Below are positions 15,823-60,808 of a stretch of DNA of 64,000 bases, piece by piece. The stretch is from a virus, in IMG/VR virus record IMGVR_UViG_3300034198_012226, positions 22,482 to 86,481 of that record; one strand, 5' to 3'. The notes beneath the pieces were generated by a model that searched no databases, had not been told where the DNA came from, and was given only the letters and a program-made list of their open reading frames with translations. The translations under genes were made by a program, and so were the position numbers. Each line of letters starts with the position of its first letter. Position 1 is the stretch's first letter.

Positions 15823-16949
15823 TTTCCTTCTTCCTTCTTTTCTGCGGGTTCGAGCATTTTGTGGACGACTTCGGCTTCAGGCTTGGTCAGCTTGGCGCAC
15901 AGCGACTTGAGCACGTCCACCTTCTGGAGGCTCTCGATGTTCACCTGGGCCATCTCACTGACACCGGCAATGCCCGACACGTTGACCGAGTTGGTGACGA
16001 TCAGGGCCTTGCTGTTCTGGCGGTAGCGAGCGACAGCGTTCATCACGTCGGCAGCTTCGGCGGCGGTGGCGGTGCCCTCGATCCGGACGAACCTACACTG
16101 GGTAGGGGCAAGGTCCGTCCAGTTCATGACGGCGAAGTCGCCCTCAGCCTGCCAGGTCGGCTCTGGCAGGGCACGGATCGTGACCGTGGTCTGCTCGGTG
16201 CCGAAGTCCTCCTGAGTCTCGATGAAGTGGGCGAACTTCTTGCCGTCCTTCTGGGCCTGGCCATGGGCAAGGCAGTCGGCAATCGAGGTTGGCCACTGGT
16301 TGCCCAGGATGATGACCTGGCCAGCCATGGCGGTGCGGCGCTGGTGCTCGTGGGCGAAGACCAGCGTCCAGCCCGACTTGATCAGGGCACGCGCCCACTC
16401 CTCGCTCACGTTCAGCGAGTGGTCGGATTCGACGGCGAAGTTGTTGTCGAAGTTGGCGTGCAGCAGGAGGAGGCCAGGCTCGGTGACATCCTCCAGGGCG
16501 CGGCGCAGCTCGACATCGAAAGCGTCCTGGTTCAAGCAGTGTGGGATCACCCATACTTTGTGGCCGATCTGCTCCAGACCCTTGTCGCGGACGTTGACCT
16601 GGGCCGGGAAGTTGGCGGTCAGCAGGGCGCACAGCATGGCGAACGAGCTGGTGCGCTGGCTGTTCTTGGCGATGTCGTGGTTGCCCAGGACGAGGTCGAG
16701 GATGCGCTCACGGTCAGCGGAGAGCCAGGCGTGCAGGATCATGTACAGGGCCAGGAGCTGGCCGGAGTCCACGTCGAATGCGTCGAACAGGTCGCCGTTG
16801 ACAATCAGTTCCTTGTACGCCTGGATCAGCTTCTCCAGCTCGTCCAGCAGGTACTGCTGGATCGCGGCGCGGGTGGCGAGGGTGGTGCCGGTGGTACGCA
16901 CGGCACCGATGTGAACGTCGTTCAAGACGAGGGCATTAACTTGGCGCAT
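15816..16949 (-). CDS. sbcD: SbcD/Mre11-like metallophosphoesterase nuclease
   Basis: 377 residues from ATG 16949. Calcineurin-like metal-binding motifs appear in order: NDVHIG, NGDLFD, GNHDI, LLLHANF and AHEHQ. The last replaces the usual GHxH but keeps both His residues. It is the nuclease partner of the overlapping SbcC-like gene. The N-terminus overlaps the DUF4326 gene by 14 bases. A weak copy of the dispersed palindrome lies inside at 16093-16107. Confidence 0.87.
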   Translation of the reverse strand: MRQVNALVLNDVHIGAVRTTGTTLATRAAIQQYLLDELEKLIQAYKELIVNGDLFDAFDVDSGQLLALYMILHAWLSADRERILDLVLGNHDIAKNSQRTSSFAMLCALLTANFPAQVNVRDKGLEQIGHKVWVIPHCLNQDAFDVELRRALEDVTEPGLLLLHANFDNNFAVESDHSLNVSEEWARALIKSGWTLVFAHEHQRRTAMAGQVIILGNQWPTSIADCLAHGQAQKDGKKFAHFIETQEDFGTEQTTVTIRALPEPTWQAEGDFAVMNWTDLAPTQCRFVRIEGTATAAEAADVMNAVARYRQNSKALIVTNSVNVSGIAGVSEMAQVNIESLQKVDVLKSLCAKLTKPEAEVVHKMLEPAEKKEEGKC

Positions 16950-39269: not shown

Positions 39270-40094
39270 CTAGGCACCCTTGGTGAAGAATTTGCGGGAG
39301 TCGTAGTTCAGGGTGACGCCGTCGCGGTGCGTGAGGCCGGTGGCGCTGTCGTTGTGCTTGAACACGACCAGCCAATCGTACTTGCCCTTGATGACGCTGT
39401 AGCCGGTGTTCGCCCAGTAGACGGTGTCTCCGGCCTCGACCCGCTGCTTGATCTCGTCCACGGTCATGCCGACCTTGTGCTGGAGGCGCTTCCGGTAGGA
39501 GTCCTCGACGGCGTCCTCGTACTTGTCCCACGACTGCTTCGAGAGCTGCTGGCCGCAGTGAGACATGCAGCGGTACTGCTGGCCGTCAGGAACGATGTGG
39601 AAGCCGTCTTCTTCGAGACGCTCCTGCATGAACTCGGTGCGCAGCCAGGAGGCCGGGACGCCGTAGGCGAGGTAGTCACCGCTGTCGTCCAGGTTCCCGG
39701 CGTTCGGCACGCACGGGGAGCAGCGACCGCACTCGGTCAGGACAGGCGACTCGAACACGTACAGGTGCTGTGCGCCGCCGAGCCAGGACGTGCGGTACTT
39801 GACGCCTTCGTGCTCGCCTTCGTAGATCGGCTCGTTTGGTTCATAGCTGTCGTTGAAGTCCTGCTTGATCTGGTCTTCATCGAACTCAGGCGGCTCGCCG
39901 TCGTTGTCCTCGGCAGCTTCGACCAGGGCGTCGTGGGCACGCTTCATCTCGGCCAGGTGGTCTTCCCAGGCCGACTCGTAGTGCGCGTCCTTGCCGTGCT
40001 TGTAGCACAGGTCGTCCCACAGGTCAGGGTCGATGCCGAAGGCATGGATGTAGCCGTAGGCGAAGCCGGTTTGGGGGTGGAGGTTGGCAAACAT
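39270..40094 (-). CDS. Conserved phage protein of unknown function
   Basis: 274 residues. TECGRCSPCVPNAGNLDD (Cys cluster), YLAYGVPASWL, YRCMSHCG and a C-terminal KVGMTVDEIKQRVEAGDTVYWAN. The first half is strongly acidic. I associate the CSPCVPNAGNLD pattern with uncharacterised proteins of large phages. One-base join to the DnaJ-like gene. Confidence 0.65.
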   Translation of the reverse strand: MFANLHPQTGFAYGYIHAFGIDPDLWDDLCYKHGKDAHYESAWEDHLAEMKRAHDALVEAAEDNDGEPPEFDEDQIKQDFNDSYEPNEPIYEGEHEGVKYRTSWLGGAQHLYVFESPVLTECGRCSPCVPNAGNLDDSGDYLAYGVPASWLRTEFMQERLEEDGFHIVPDGQQYRCMSHCGQQLSKQSWDKYEDAVEDSYRKRLQHKVGMTVDEIKQRVEAGDTVYWANTGYSVIKGKYDWLVVFKHNDSATGLTHRDGVTLNYDSRKFFTKGA

Positions 40095-40774
40095 TAGCGC
40101 ATCCCCCCGAACATCCGACCCAGGGCCTCGCCGATCATGTCCTCGGCCCGCTTCTGCTTGGCCTTCTCCATCTTGGCAAGTACGGCCGGGGTTGGCGGCT
40201 CGATCTCGTACTCGTGGTTGTTCAGCACCTCGACCATGCGGTCGGCGACCTTCAGGTGCATCTCGCTCTTGTCGATCATGCCCTGGACTTCGGACATGAC
40301 GCTGGCCATCAGGCCCGCCGCCTGGTTCTCGCCGGTCTTCGCGGTCGTGCGCTTCATGGCCTTCTCGATCTTGTCCCGCATCTTGACGTGGCCGTCGCGC
40401 TCCTCCTTCGTGTCGCGGTGGATTTCGCGCACCTTGCCGGTGATCTCGTCCAGGATGTCGGTGTGTTCGACGTACTCGGTGTCCCGGATGATGAGGGCGA
40501 TCACGTTGCGCAGCGCCTGCATCGCGGTGGAGTTGATCTTCTCCTCCTCGGTGGCGCGGCCATCGTGGCGGTAGGTGCCGGTGGCGTCGTAGCGGGTACG
40601 GCGCTCGATGTCGGACAGCACGTCGTAGGCTTCCTGGATCATCTGGAAGCGCATCTTGTCGCCGTCAGGCTTGTCGGGGTGGTGCTGCTGCGCCAGCTTG
40701 CGGTATGCCTTCTTGATTTCGGCCTTGCTCGCGTCGCGGGCTACACCGAGTGTTTCGTACAGATCGTGTTCCAT
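40094..40774 (-). CDS. DnaJ-like protein (J domain plus unique C-terminus)
   Basis: 226 residues from ATG 40774. J domain at residues 1-~70: [29 protein letters not shown] (HPD 32-34), [11 protein letters not shown]. No Gly/Phe or zinc region; the rest is helical and ends in [19 protein letters not shown]. It should recruit the host DnaK. No DnaK is in the window. Codons 7-11 contain a palindrome variant (40741-40755). Confidence 0.82.
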
Positions 40775-56323: not shown

Positions 56324-57037
56324 TTAAGCGCCGCCGTTACGCTGCCAAATGGTTTGCTTTTCGACAGGGATTCGCTGGCGATCCAGGGCAGCACATAATG
56401 CGGCTTCACGTTCGTTTTCCAAACGCTCGGCAGCGCCATATTCACGGACAGGGGCAAGTAAATCGAGACCCTTCTGATAACGGCGGCGCAGCTCGTGCAA
56501 TTTGATCGGTTGAATCGTGGTGAGTGGAACTCGGCGACGTACAGGCTTTCCGGTTTCCACGTCGATCTCGGTAATCATAATGCGATGGATCGTGGCACCC
56601 TCGGGTAAATCCTCACCGGCATTATCGGCCAGGTATTTCTCCAATTGCTTGAGCGTCCAGCCCTTGCCATGGATCGTATCGACCAATATGGTTTTGGGTT
56701 GAATCTCGGCAGCTTCACGCAGGCCGACCCAGGCCACGTTCTTGGGATTGAAGCCGGACTTCAGGTTAATGCGCTTGATGAATTGGCGGCGCAGTCCCAG
56801 GGGTTTGGACGGATCAAAGTCCGACTCGAAGAACTCCTCGTTGTCGTCCACGAAGTTATCGAAGTCGTACCAGCGGTGCATGACGGTGATGCCCCTGGCA
56901 CCGACCAGGTGGAACAGCTTGTGGTTGGGATCGTCGCAGGAGTCGAGCATCTTCTTCCACTGCTTGTACATGGGATGGGACTTGTAGCCGTAACGGATGA
57001 CGCGAGCGGGCCGGTCATCCAGGTCAAGGTCGAGCAT
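56324..57037 (-). CDS. AP2/HNH-associated DNA-binding-like protein
   Basis: 237 residues, the first gene of the long leftward block. Residues ~18-60 (SHPMYKQWKKMLDSCDDP, GARGITVMHRWYDFDNFVDD) match the N-terminal region of phage homing-endonuclease-like and AP2-domain DNA-binding proteins. The HNH catalytic triad is not seen, so it may bind DNA without cutting. A repeated Arg-rich middle (RRRVPLTTIQPIKLHELRRR) follows. Being promoter-proximal, it may be an early regulator. Confidence 0.55.
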   Translation of the reverse strand: MLDLDLDDRPARVIRYGYKSHPMYKQWKKMLDSCDDPNHKLFHLVGARGITVMHRWYDFDNFVDDNEEFFESDFDPSKPLGLRRQFIKRINLKSGFNPKNVAWVGLREAAEIQPKTILVDTIHGKGWTLKQLEKYLADNAGEDLPEGATIHRIMITEIDVETGKPVRRRVPLTTIQPIKLHELRRRYQKGLDLLAPVREYGAAERLENEREAALCAALDRQRIPVEKQTIWQRNGGA

Positions 57038-57484
57038 GGCGGTTTCCGTTAGTAGTGTGTGGGAATCGTGATTCTACACGTCAATCAAGGATTCCAGAAG
57101 AAAGAGATTCTGAAGTACAAAAAATTTCGTTTAGCAGTCCAAAAATAAAATTTGGATTTGTTTAGACTACTAGGTAAAAACTACCTTGCAGTAAAGCTCC
57201 TCCTATGAGGAGAGGCCGCACTTGCATAAGGTTTAGGCAGTATTCCCTTAAATGATGTGGCAAAGTTCTACGCATTTGGTAGATGTGTTACGCCACTTGC
57301 AGTGCGGGTGCCAATGAGCATTCCAATTGGAACACGCATTGGCACCGGCACTGATCCACGCCGTACCCCGTTGGTTGGGGGTCGAGATGGTCATCAGGCG
57401 GTGCTGGCCTCCGGTTGTTGTATCCCCTTTGGCCTTCCCTCGCGTCGAACTGGTCTCGCATCCATTGTGGGCCTCATTGCGGGC

Positions 57485-57499
57485 CTACACTGGGTGCTG
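57485..57499. repeat. Dispersed 15-bp palindrome, copy M
   Basis: CTACACTGGGTGCTG, 12 of 15 matches, in the non-coding control region. Confidence 0.5.
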
Positions 57500-58135
57500 T
57501 CGTCATCTGTACACTGGCGCAGGGCACAACCCCTGTCTTTACCCCTGGGATGCGCTCCCAGTTATCACGGTGAGAATACTGCGCAGGAGGGTATTGCTAT
57601 ATGTCCCTCACTCCTACACTCGTCATTGCCGATCACCCTTACCAGAGGGAACCATTACGGCCGTTTGCCTGCATGACTCTGGTATGTGTACAGTTTGTCC
57701 CTGTGCGCTCCTGATGGGATATAAAAACGGGGCGCTCAAGCGATACCACCCGCGAACGGTAAATGGGGCGCTAGACTGCGATGCCGTTGCACCTGGTGAG
57801 GCACAACGCACAGGGTAGAAACTGTTCGCCGCGTCATCACCAGGCGTAATTCGGCCTGGGACAATCGCGGGAATGTTGCTTTATTCGGTAAATGCCACCG
57901 GCAGCGGATACGCCAGGCTTATCAGAATGTGCGAGTAATGCCAGGGGCATCACCGCGCCATTACTAATGAGCGGGTATCTTTTCGGGTGGCATGTTGTTA
58001 ATGAACCGATCCTATCGAATCACCATGGGCGAGTAATGACAAAGCATCACCGCACAGCATGAGTAATCCGGCAGGATTCGGCGCGCATGGGCGCACCGGG
58101 CAAATTGGCATCGTTTTGTGCCGGTCTGCACTTCA

Positions 58136-58174
58136 GGATTTAAAGGCCCTGCCTATAGCAAGGCCCTTAAATCC
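58136..58174 (-). terminator. Long hairpin after the Ala-rich gene
   Basis: GGATTTAA...GGCC...TGC pairs with GCA...GGCC...TTAAATCC (two mismatches, CTATA loop). It lies 35 bases past the stop of the gene at 58209, so it probably ends that transcript. Confidence 0.6.
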
Positions 58175-58208
58175 TGCCCCGTCACCAGGGCAGGCAGGAA
58201 ACTACAGG

Positions 58209-58970
58209 TTAGGCAGCGGCAGGGGCAGCGGCGCGGCGCGCTTTACCTTTACCGGCTGGCTTGCCTTGCTCGGCAGGGGCAGGGGCAGGGGCAGGGGCAG
58301 GGGCACCGGCAGCGGCACCGGCGGCAGCGATAGCGGCACCGGCTTGCTTGTCGGCGAACTCAGCCAGGGCAGCGGCTTTGCCCTCAGCGAACGATTGCGC
58401 CAGGGCGGCAGGCACGCCCAAAGCATTGCGGAAATCGTCCATCAAGCCAGGGGCAGCGCGGCCGGTCACCAGCAAAGCCAGGGCAGCGCGCAGAACGTCG
58501 GAATCCGTCATGATGGAATCAGCCGCCACCAGCCCACGTTCGGCAATTTCTTTCTCGACGGCAACCTTTACGGCAGCGGCTTGCTCCTCGGCCTTCTTGG
58601 CTTTGGCTTGCTCTTTCTCGGCCTCGGTTTTCTCGGCAGGCAGGGCGGCAAGATAGGCAGTCTCGAACACGTTCGCCAGGCGCTCGGCCTCGGCCTCATT
58701 GCGTGCGGCGCGCTCCTCGGCAGTGATTTGCTCTTGCGGCTTGATGAACAGGGCAATGTAACCCACGGCAACAAAGCCAGCGTGAAGGGCCTTGCCCTGG
58801 ATGCTCTTGCTTTTTGCTGCCTCGGCAGCGCCAGCCAGCCAGTATTTATCCGTGCCCTTTACAGCGGTGAGGGCAGCGGTAAAGATGATGTTCAGGCGAA
58901 GGGCGGCACCGGCTTGCTTGTTACCAGCCAGGGCGGCGATTTGAGTTTGAAAGTCAAGATTCTGTTTCAT
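58209..58970 (-). CDS. Ala-rich protein with (Pro-Ala) linker and basic tail
   Basis: 253 residues; GGAG precedes the ATG. Ala is by far the commonest residue. Helical segments (NIIFTAALTAVKGTDKYWLAG, EAERLANVFETAYLAALPAE) lead to a Pro-Ala repeat (APAPAPAPAPA) and a basic end (GKPAGKGKARRAAAPAAA) like a histone-H1-type tail. It may bind DNA at the origin. Codon use is odd: the Pro-Ala part is encoded by five perfect GGGGCA hexamers on the plus strand, and word use matches the non-coding arrays nearby. Confidence 0.65.
   Translation of the reverse strand: MKQNLDFQTQIAALAGNKQAGAALRLNIIFTAALTAVKGTDKYWLAGAAEAAKSKSIQGKALHAGFVAVGYIALFIKPQEQITAEERAARNEAEAERLANVFETAYLAALPAEKTEAEKEQAKAKKAEEQAAAVKVAVEKEIAERGLVAADSIMTDSDVLRAALALLVTGRAAPGLMDDFRNALGVPAALAQSFAEGKAAALAEFADKQAGAAIAAAGAAAGAPAPAPAPAPAEQGKPAGKGKARRAAAPAAA
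58276..58305 (+). repeat. Five tandem GGGGCA hexamers (G-quadruplex-prone)
   Basis: Five exact GGGGCA units in a row on the plus strand, inside the minus-strand Ala-rich gene. Four or more G4 runs with 2-base loops are a strong G-quadruplex motif. The tract could slip by whole hexamers without changing frame. Confidence 0.85.
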
Positions 58971-59048
58971 GGTTTGATGCTCCTATTTGGAGTGCCCTAC
59001 AGGGCGGGTTATCCGGATCAACAATGCGTTGTCCGTTTGAGAGATTCC

Positions 59049-59077
59049 ATTCTCGCAGAACTCATATACGTTTGCAA
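59049..59077 (-). promoter_or_regulatory. Candidate sigma70-like promoter for the Ala-rich gene
   Basis: On the minus strand TTGCAA, 17-base spacer, GAGAAT, about 80 bases before the ATG at 58970. Confidence 0.5.
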
Positions 59078-59170
59078 GTGTTTTCTTTGAAGTGTACGGA
59101 ATATGTTGTTCGTTGTTTCGCCGCCACATTCCCATGTTGCTATCCGGCAACATGTACGAGGGCACTAATA

Positions 59171-59187
59171 GTTGTCACTCTGACAAC
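59171..59187. repeat. Inverted repeat bordering the GC array
   Basis: GTTGTCA-CTC-TGACAAC, a perfect 7-bp inverted repeat. A 14/15 direct copy of its left 15 bases lies at 59477-59491, so the GC-rich array between is bracketed by direct repeats. Confidence 0.65.
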
Positions 59188-59190
59188 ATG

Positions 59191-59476
59191 GGCACCGGCA
59201 CTGGCCATGGCAGCGCCAGGGCAGGCGGCAGGGGCACCGGCACCGGCAGTGCCAGGGCAGGCGGCAGCGGCAGGGGCAGCGCCAGGGGCACCGGCAGTGC
59301 CAGGGCAGGCGGCAGGGGCAGCGCCTATATAGGAGGGCAGCGCCAGGGGCACCGGCAGTGCCAGGGGCAGGGGCACCGGCAGTGCCTATATAGGAGGGCA
59401 GCGCCAGGGGCACCGGCAGTGCCAGGGGCACCGGCACCGGCAGTGCCTAAGCCAGGGGCAGCGGCAGCGCCTATGT
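59191..59476. repeat. GC-rich GGCA-type repeat array 1
   Basis: Low-complexity DNA built from GGCACCGGCA, GTGCCAGGGCA, GGCGGCA and GGGGCAGCGCC words. It includes a 61-bp direct repeat (about 59322-59370 and 59383-59431) that begins around CTATATAG. Frames across it are compositional artefacts, not genes. Confidence 0.8.
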
Positions 59477-59489
59477 GTTGTTACTCTGA

Positions 59490-59580
59490 CACTCTTATAT
59501 AAGACTTACAGGCACTCTTATATAAGACTTACAGGCACTCTTATATAAGACTTAGGGGCACTCTTATATAAGACTTCACA
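59490..59580. repeat. Four tandem 23-bp iterons (candidate replication origin)
   Basis: Four head-to-tail units at 59490, 59513, 59536 and 59559, exact period 23, core CACTCTTATATAAGACTTA. Each holds the 10-bp palindrome CTTATATAAG. Units 1 and 2 are identical; 3 and 4 differ only in the last few bases. Iterons of this size bind replication initiators in plasmids and some phages. Confidence 0.85.
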
Positions 59581-59595
59581 CTTTTTAACACAAAG

Positions 59596-59604
59596 TTATC
59601 CACA
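59596..59604 (+). promoter_or_regulatory. DnaA box 1
   Basis: TTATCCACA, a perfect consensus DnaA box, 16 bases after the last iteron. Confidence 0.8.
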
Positions 59605-59645
59605 ATTGGCACCCCTCAAAACGCATCAGATCGGCCTGTATTGAG

Positions 59646-59654
59646 TTATCCACA
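59646..59654 (+). promoter_or_regulatory. DnaA box 2
   Basis: TTATCCACA again, same orientation, exactly 50 bases from box 1. Confidence 0.8.
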
Positions 59655-59706
59655 GGCACCCTACCCTACCCCTTACCAGGGCGGCGAACGTGGCACCAGG
59701 ACGTTT

Positions 59707-59726
59707 TACTGTATATTTATACAGTA
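59707..59726. promoter_or_regulatory. LexA-type (SOS) box
   Basis: TACTGTATATTTATACAGTA: CTGT-N8-ACAG with 9-bp perfect arms, as in the gammaproteobacterial LexA consensus. It lies in an AT-rich stretch (59700-59785) next to the iterons and DnaA boxes. That stretch may also serve as the unwinding element. Confidence 0.7.
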
Positions 59727-59788
59727 GTTTTTGCTTAAAAAATAGGCAGTTTTGGCACCGGATTTGCCTATTATTTAGGCAGCAAACA

Positions 59789-59945
59789 GGGCAGCGCCAG
59801 GGGCACCGGCACCGGCACCGGCAGTGCCAGGGCAGGCGGCAGGGGCAGCGCCAGGGGCACCCGTGCTTAAATTTTAGGCAGGGCAGGCAGCGCCAGGGCA
59901 GGCGGCAGCGCCAGGGGCACCGGCAGTGCCAGGGCAGGTGACGGG
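59789..59945. repeat. GC-rich GGCA-type repeat array 2
   Basis: Same word set as array 1 (GGCACCGGCA, GTGCCAGGGCAGG, GGCAGCGCCAGGGGCA), interrupted by a short AT-rich TTAAATTTTAGG. No gene. Confidence 0.75.
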
Positions 59946-60046
59946 GCAGTCTTTAGCGCGCTGGACGGTGCCGGTGGCGATCCTACCCGCTCAAAAATTC
60001 CCGGCGCATTTTCCAAAAATTCGATGCAATTCCGACAACACCGGCA

Positions 60047-60061
60047 CCGCAGTCGGTGTAG
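60047..60061. repeat. Weak copy of dispersed palindrome
   Basis: CCGCAGTCGGTGTAG, 11 of 15 matches with an intact GTGTAG end, 46 bases upstream of the rightward promoter. Confidence 0.4.
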
Positions 60062-60077
60062 GACATGACGCCGCCCC

Positions 60078-60136
60078 TGTGTCATCCAGGACACACGGGA
60101 TTTCCAGATGACAAGTGGAACGAACTCATCTATGAT
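60078..60136 (+). promoter_or_regulatory. Rightward promoter with upstream inverted repeat
   Basis: ATGACA (60108-60113), 17-base spacer, TATGAT (60131-60136). The inverted repeat TGTGTC/GACACA (60078-60095) lies just upstream and could be an operator. It drives the rightward block leading to terminase. Confidence 0.6.
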
Positions 60137-60170
60137 TGCCCCCAGTCAAAACAACAGGGGAATCGGAAAC

Positions 60171-60359
60171 ATGTTCAGGCCAACGTCAAACGTCGGGAAA
60201 GCGGCAAAGCGGTCAGCACTGTCCATCATCGCTGGCACCGCCATCGCCACCTCCTACCACGTCGTCATGGGCCAGAACCCTGTCGCCACCCTATCTCTGG
60301 GCGTCGGCGCTCTCATCGGCATCGCCACCCTCATCGCCTACTACAAGCCAGCCAAATGA
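60171..60359 (+). CDS. Small two-span membrane protein
   Basis: 62 residues from ATG 60171; an upstream ATG lies within the -10 box and cannot be used. Basic start (MFRPTSNVGKAAKRS), then SALSIIAGTAIATSYHVVMG and LSLGVGALIGIATLIAYY as probable membrane spans. First gene of the rightward unit. Function unknown. Confidence 0.6.
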   Translation: MFRPTSNVGKAAKRSALSIIAGTAIATSYHVVMGQNPVATLSLGVGALIGIATLIAYYKPAK

Positions 60360-60808
60360 ACATCTTCGCCCATACCGAACCCACCGGCCCGTACCCCGCC
60401 TACGTCTCGATCAACGACCGGCACAACGACCACGTCACGATCACGGTGCGCAGCCGTGGCAACGACGGGCGCGACATCGGTGCCATGACCATGCCCACCT
60501 GGAAGCTCCGTGAAATGGCCACCAAGCTCCTGGAGCACTGCGACGCCGTCGATGAAACGAACGGCAAACTGAAACAGGCACCGGCACAGCTCCCGAAACC
60601 GCCCCTGGGCAGCTCCCACTTCCCGAGCGTGGACGAGATGGTCAACCGCTTCCTGGGCTGGAAACTGCCCGAAGACTTCTACCCCGACTGCGGCATCCAG
60701 TTCGCCAAGCCCGCTGACCAGCTCTCCTGGCCGACCGGCACCAACCTGCTGCACGCTGGCCAGGCCAAGGGAATGATCCTGCACATCCTGACGGGCGGTG
60801 CCAAGTGA
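60356..60808 (+). CDS. Unknown protein
   Basis: 150 residues from ATG 60356 overlapping the previous stop. PYPAYVSINDRHNDHVTITV, REMATKLLEHCDAVDETNGK, FLGWKLPEDFYPDCGIQF and PTGTNLLHAGQAKGMILHIL. The WKLPEDFxPDCGI core is a pattern I associate with small proteins of many phages. Function unknown. Confidence 0.65.
   Translation: MNIFAHTEPTGPYPAYVSINDRHNDHVTITVRSRGNDGRDIGAMTMPTWKLREMATKLLEHCDAVDETNGKLKQAPAQLPKPPLGSSHFPSVDEMVNRFLGWKLPEDFYPDCGIQFAKPADQLSWPTGTNLLHAGQAKGMILHILTGGAK

Follow-up and report, generated by a model that had tools for sequence, protein, structure and literature searches.

The question raised by this locus is whether a tandem array of repeats, followed by DnaA boxes and located between two divergent gene blocks of a virus that encodes its own DNA polymerase, acts as a replication origin, as a transcriptional control region, or as both. 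The virus record analyzed here (IMG/VR IMGVR_UViG_3300034198_012226) comprises 86,481 bp, and the window, i.e., the whole stretch of 64,000 nucleotides to which the coordinates below refer, corresponds to bases 22482-86481 of that record. The record ends repeat over approximately 88 bp, hence the genome is probably complete and either circular or terminally redundant. A non-coding gap of about 1.1 kb (58971-60107) separates a leftward (early/replication) gene block, encoding DNA polymerase A, primase, helicase, ribonucleotide reductase and ligase, as well as SbcC-, SbcD- and ParB-like proteins, from a rightward block that runs toward structural genes, including portal. The location between divergent blocks, as given in the initial annotation, was confirmed by the first genes of the leftward (58209-58970, minus strand) and rightward (60108-60359, plus strand) blocks. 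The former gene is conserved beside the array in the related phage G001; the structure prediction for its product is of low confidence, and protein look-ups among viral contigs and phages yielded no relative besides the G001 copy, which is known by synteny. The early block also encodes a DnaJ-domain protein (40094-40774, minus strand), and the 100 bp with the highest AT content in the genome lie in a second ORF-poor gap (57050-58200). No Rfam match was found in the region 56900-60400.

From left to right, the gap contains the palindrome GTTGTCACTCTGACAAC, a first tract of GGCA hexamers, the array of four 23-bp repeats, the two TTATCCACA boxes, a LexA-type palindrome inside an AT-rich stretch, and another GGCA tract. 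The four iterons with an exact 23-bp period, described previously, were found at 59490-59575 (unstranded), and each of them holds CTTATATAAG (at 59494, 59517, 59540, and 59563); no further copy occurs in the 86,481-bp record, the Markov expectation being 0.0006 per genome. The "iterons" turned out to be dyads of the GTCTTATATAAGAC type, with cores (TCTTATATAAGA) at 59493-59504, 59516-59527, 59539-59550, and 59562-59573. Both DnaA boxes, 50 bp apart and perfect, were also confirmed (59596-59604 and 59646-59654, plus strand); they are the only TTATCCACA sequences of the genome, and two were reached in none of 100 shuffles. The adjoining AT-rich stretch (59700-59785), a candidate unwinding element and/or promoter, is the second most AT-rich of this 62% GC genome (minimum of 32% GC per 100 bp within 59434-59817), after the lowest 100 bp (29% GC) within 57010-57347. 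The initial annotation overlooked the LexA-type palindrome, GTTGTCACTCTGACAAC, and the GGCA/TGCC tracts. The first of these, TACTGTATATTTATACAGTA (59707-59726), is a perfect palindrome matching exactly the pattern TACTGTN8ACAGTA and a predicted LexA (SOS) box; a LexA-type site, with one mismatch allowed, was seen in 2 of 100 shuffles. The palindrome GTTGTCACTCTGACAAC (59171-59187) is single and conserved in G001 (at 16653), with an imperfect second copy at 59477-59491. The hexamer-repeat tracts span 59190-59470 (left; 37 GGCA/TGCC per 300 bp vs a mean of 4.4) and 59785-59945 (right), and at the matching place G001 carries a (CACTGC)n tract.

The dyad of the array is the predicted operator dyad of SdhR, a betaproteobacterial regulator of the HutC subfamily of GntR proteins, whose motif is TCTTATGTCTTATATAAGACATAAGA (Suvorova et al. 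2015, PMC4494728). Each of the four sites in the window has the sequence CTCTTATATAAGAC and thus contains the SdhR core dyad, (G)TCTTATATAAGA(C), whereas the SdhR outer half-site (TCTTAT/ATAAGA), searched for in register, is absent from them. This half-site was found in 30 of the 44 array loci; TCTTAT occupies the exact register in 69 of 264 phage array flanks, a frequency equal to that of the bacterial flanks (113 of 415), while at each shifted register it occurs at most twice in phages. The same register in phages and bacteria supports the action of one kind of protein at both. In Comamonadaceae-type genomes, the dyad was found upstream of sdhR-sdhCDAB and of aceA, and in Comamonadaceae a HutC/GntR-type gene with the dyad upstream precedes sdhC. 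A scan of bacterial genomes yielded at least 119 loci; among the matches listed, aceA (isocitrate lyase) is placed beside a paired dyad in 99 of 119, and most names are those of Comamonadaceae or Burkholderiales, with some Prochlorococcus. In contrast to the phage sites, arranged in 23-bp arrays, the host chromosomal dyads are single or mostly 30 bp apart, and no 23-bp array was found in 201 genomes of the same bacterial family (Comamonadaceae). In Prochlorococcus (L211, L217, L169, and other loci), pairs of TCTTATATAAGA lie 35 bp apart, beside a gene with a ribbon-helix-helix-like start, and the dyad may have a different reader there. As no GntR gene is present in the window phage or in G001, the reader of the array would be a protein of the host.

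These findings bear directly on the earlier description of the locus as a plasmid-like origin. Iteron plasmid origins (P1 oriR, F ori2, and pSC101) combine tandem repeats near helical phase with DnaA boxes and an AT-rich stretch, and the window region shows the same three elements; it differs in that its repeats are dyads that correspond to a host operator and no Rep gene was found among approximately 43 proteins scanned. The lambda origin, placed inside the initiator gene, likewise has four dyad iterons beside an AT-rich stretch, but the window array is intergenic (gap 58970-60108), with DnaA boxes adjoining it. Such an anatomy of helically phased dyads, DnaA boxes and AT-rich stretch, together with the phage specificity of the 23-bp arrays, would suit a classical iteron origin, in which an unrecognised phage-coded, dyad-binding initiator similar to lambda O reads the repeats and DnaA helps. 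We consider this unlikely, since no Rep family was detected among the scanned proteins (mostly the larger ones), no protein is common to all array phages, and the motif equals a host operator, in related arrays with the outer half-site included. The plasmid-like iteron part of the earlier description is therefore not supported. The origin-like character of the locus is supported, because in several phage lineages that are unrelated to each other such arrays are likewise accompanied by clustered DnaA boxes. A comparable case is the lytic Pseudomonas phage vB_PseuGesM_254, which has its own polymerase and a divergent gap in which Ori-Finder predicted DnaA boxes (PMC11512268); unlike the gap of the window phage, it showed no array, no TTATNCACA, and no LexA box in our scan.

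The distribution of the array was analyzed using IMG/VR, in which a scan for tandem CTTATATAAG indicated 114 stretches, 44 of them with at least two near-exact GTCTTATATAAGAC sites, and a second pattern indicated 68 stretches. The commonest dyad spacing in these arrays is 23 bp, and the 44 non-identical array loci represent 16 DNA-level lineages. When 16 diverse phage contigs were searched whole, exact matches formed one cluster in each. The clusters are intergenic, often at a divergent junction, with terminase/portal genes adjoining many of them and the array often just upstream of the terminase genes; in G002, G005, G008, and G012, it lies between co-directional genes. The only proteins shared by most array phages are DNA polymerase A and other common enzymes, and BLAST searches with an idealised array, as well as with the gap DNA of the array phage G003, retrieved no cultured phage. 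The module is not unique to the window phage and, contrary to what had been proposed, not unusual in a phage with its own polymerase, as many such phages carry it.

At least two DnaA boxes were found near the array in 6 of the 16 lineages. Around the 44 array loci (up to a distance of 700 bp), the density of TTATNCACA was 28 times that in the rest of the same contigs (52 vs 34 occurrences), and three control motifs gave 0.4-3.8-fold values. The AT-richness of the gaps could explain part of this enrichment, which is why these control motifs and a Markov null calculated for each gap matter. Inside the gap lie 7 of 9 DnaA boxes in G003, 4 of 4 in both G014 and G015, and 6 of 9 in G012, and the null means for these gaps do not exceed 0.08. 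Strict LexA boxes (TACTGTN8ACAG) occur at the array loci of the window phage (G000), G003, G006, and L117, vs one match elsewhere. The presence of DnaA boxes in several lineages, in a fixed place beside the dyad array and an AT-rich stretch, is better explained by an origin than by chance or plain promoter control.

The several DnaA boxes found in single gaps of other array phages, and multiple sites gathered in one place, as in the datA locus of Escherichia coli, would also be compatible with a titration decoy, i.e., replicating phage DNA soaking up SdhR, DnaA or LexA, with derepression of host metabolism and a block of host initiation. This explanation seems highly improbable, given that a constant 23-bp period and a constant position where the gene blocks meet argue for a local function and that two DnaA boxes, as in the window, are few for titration.

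The same junction was compared in relatives of the window phage. In G001 (86,761 bp; polymerase 80% and primase 77% identical to those of the window phage), the layout of the gap is conserved: it sits between homologous genes on both array sides and contains the palindrome, the TGCC tract and degenerate copies of the dyad, and it has neither a DnaA box nor a LexA box. Pseudomonas phages Lana and PMBT3, whose primases mark them as distant kin, have the same divergent layout, and their junctions carry neither the array nor DnaA boxes; the array is also absent from the cultured relatives PA11 and PseuGesM_254. At the junctions of Lana and PMBT3 (L020, L022), the early block has a long leader, in which a boxA-like GCTCTTTAACA occurs on the leftward strand, and similar boxA-like sites occur in the gaps of G003, G006, and G012. 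Moreover, among 399 genomes of the order Burkholderiales, a prophage-like relative (G437:C1, approximately 2,202,300-2,284,100; L356-L361, L364-L367) was found in the chromosome of one. It is syntenic across the replication and structural genes, has a recombinase-like gene at one of its ends, and carries transposase-like insertions. The chromosome that harbors it also carries the dyad at sdhR and aceA. The prophage junction has no DnaA box, its palindromes are different ones (ATAACACAAGTGTTAT), and it contains seven repeats of AGGCGGACCAG, which indicates that the sites turn over.

Because every site in the gap is also a site of a host regulator, an alternative in which the SdhR-type, DnaA and LexA sites form only an operator hub, timing the divergent blocks by host physiology while replication starts elsewhere, has to be considered. 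It is in line with the nature of the three motifs, all of them sites of host transcription regulators and LexA boxes being operators by nature, with the position of arrays at a divergent promoter gap and often close to terminase genes, and with the lack of DnaA boxes in G001. On the other hand, the 4-7 strong DnaA boxes counted in single gaps exceed the usual need of transcription control by DnaA, and the arrays placed between co-directional genes do not fit divergent control. We regard the hub without an origin as less probable than a hub combined with an origin, but as the most probable of the alternatives.

GC skew, proposed in the initial annotation as a check, was rejected as evidence on the origin. 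The cumulative maximum (59976) coincides with the transcription divide and follows the direction of transcription; as C prevails at the third and fourfold sites of the coding strands in both arms, the skew says nothing about the origin here. A replication term fitted to the skew did not peak at the array in any of the five genomes fitted.

Our preferred reading, to which we assign an even chance, is that the region 59171-59945 is a divergent control region combined with a probable DnaA-assisted origin, predicted from its motifs to be read by host SdhR-type, DnaA and LexA proteins. In this control region and origin, a host HutC/GntR regulator of the SdhR type would occupy the four dyads as tandem dimers, and host DnaA would bind the two adjoining boxes and open the AT-rich stretch, onto which the phage-coded primase-helicase and polymerase could then load. 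LexA and the array would gate the divergent promoters, and such gating would tie replication and early transcription to the metabolic and SOS state of the host. The points against this reading are the G001 gap, with degenerate iterons and devoid of DnaA and LexA boxes, the 10 of 16 lineages without two DnaA boxes near the array, the lack of the SdhR outer half-site in the window's own sites, the different spacing of the host dyads, the prophage junction without a DnaA box, and the missing skew signal.

The recurrence of the cluster in many unrelated phages suggests that it marks a replication start or a switch of gene expression operated through host control proteins. It is conceivable, though we hold it with some doubt, that the cluster is a transferable origin/control module placing replication and early transcription together under an SdhR-type regulator of the TCA cycle, DnaA, and LexA. 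If so, a single switch would let the phage sense the metabolism, the replication state and the DNA damage of its host. The choice of origin is rarely known in lytic phages with their own polymerase, and a recurrent, sequence-defined module of host-regulator sites provides testable origins for many uncultured phages. It also suggests that such phages may sense the metabolism and DNA damage of their hosts via the host's own proteins.
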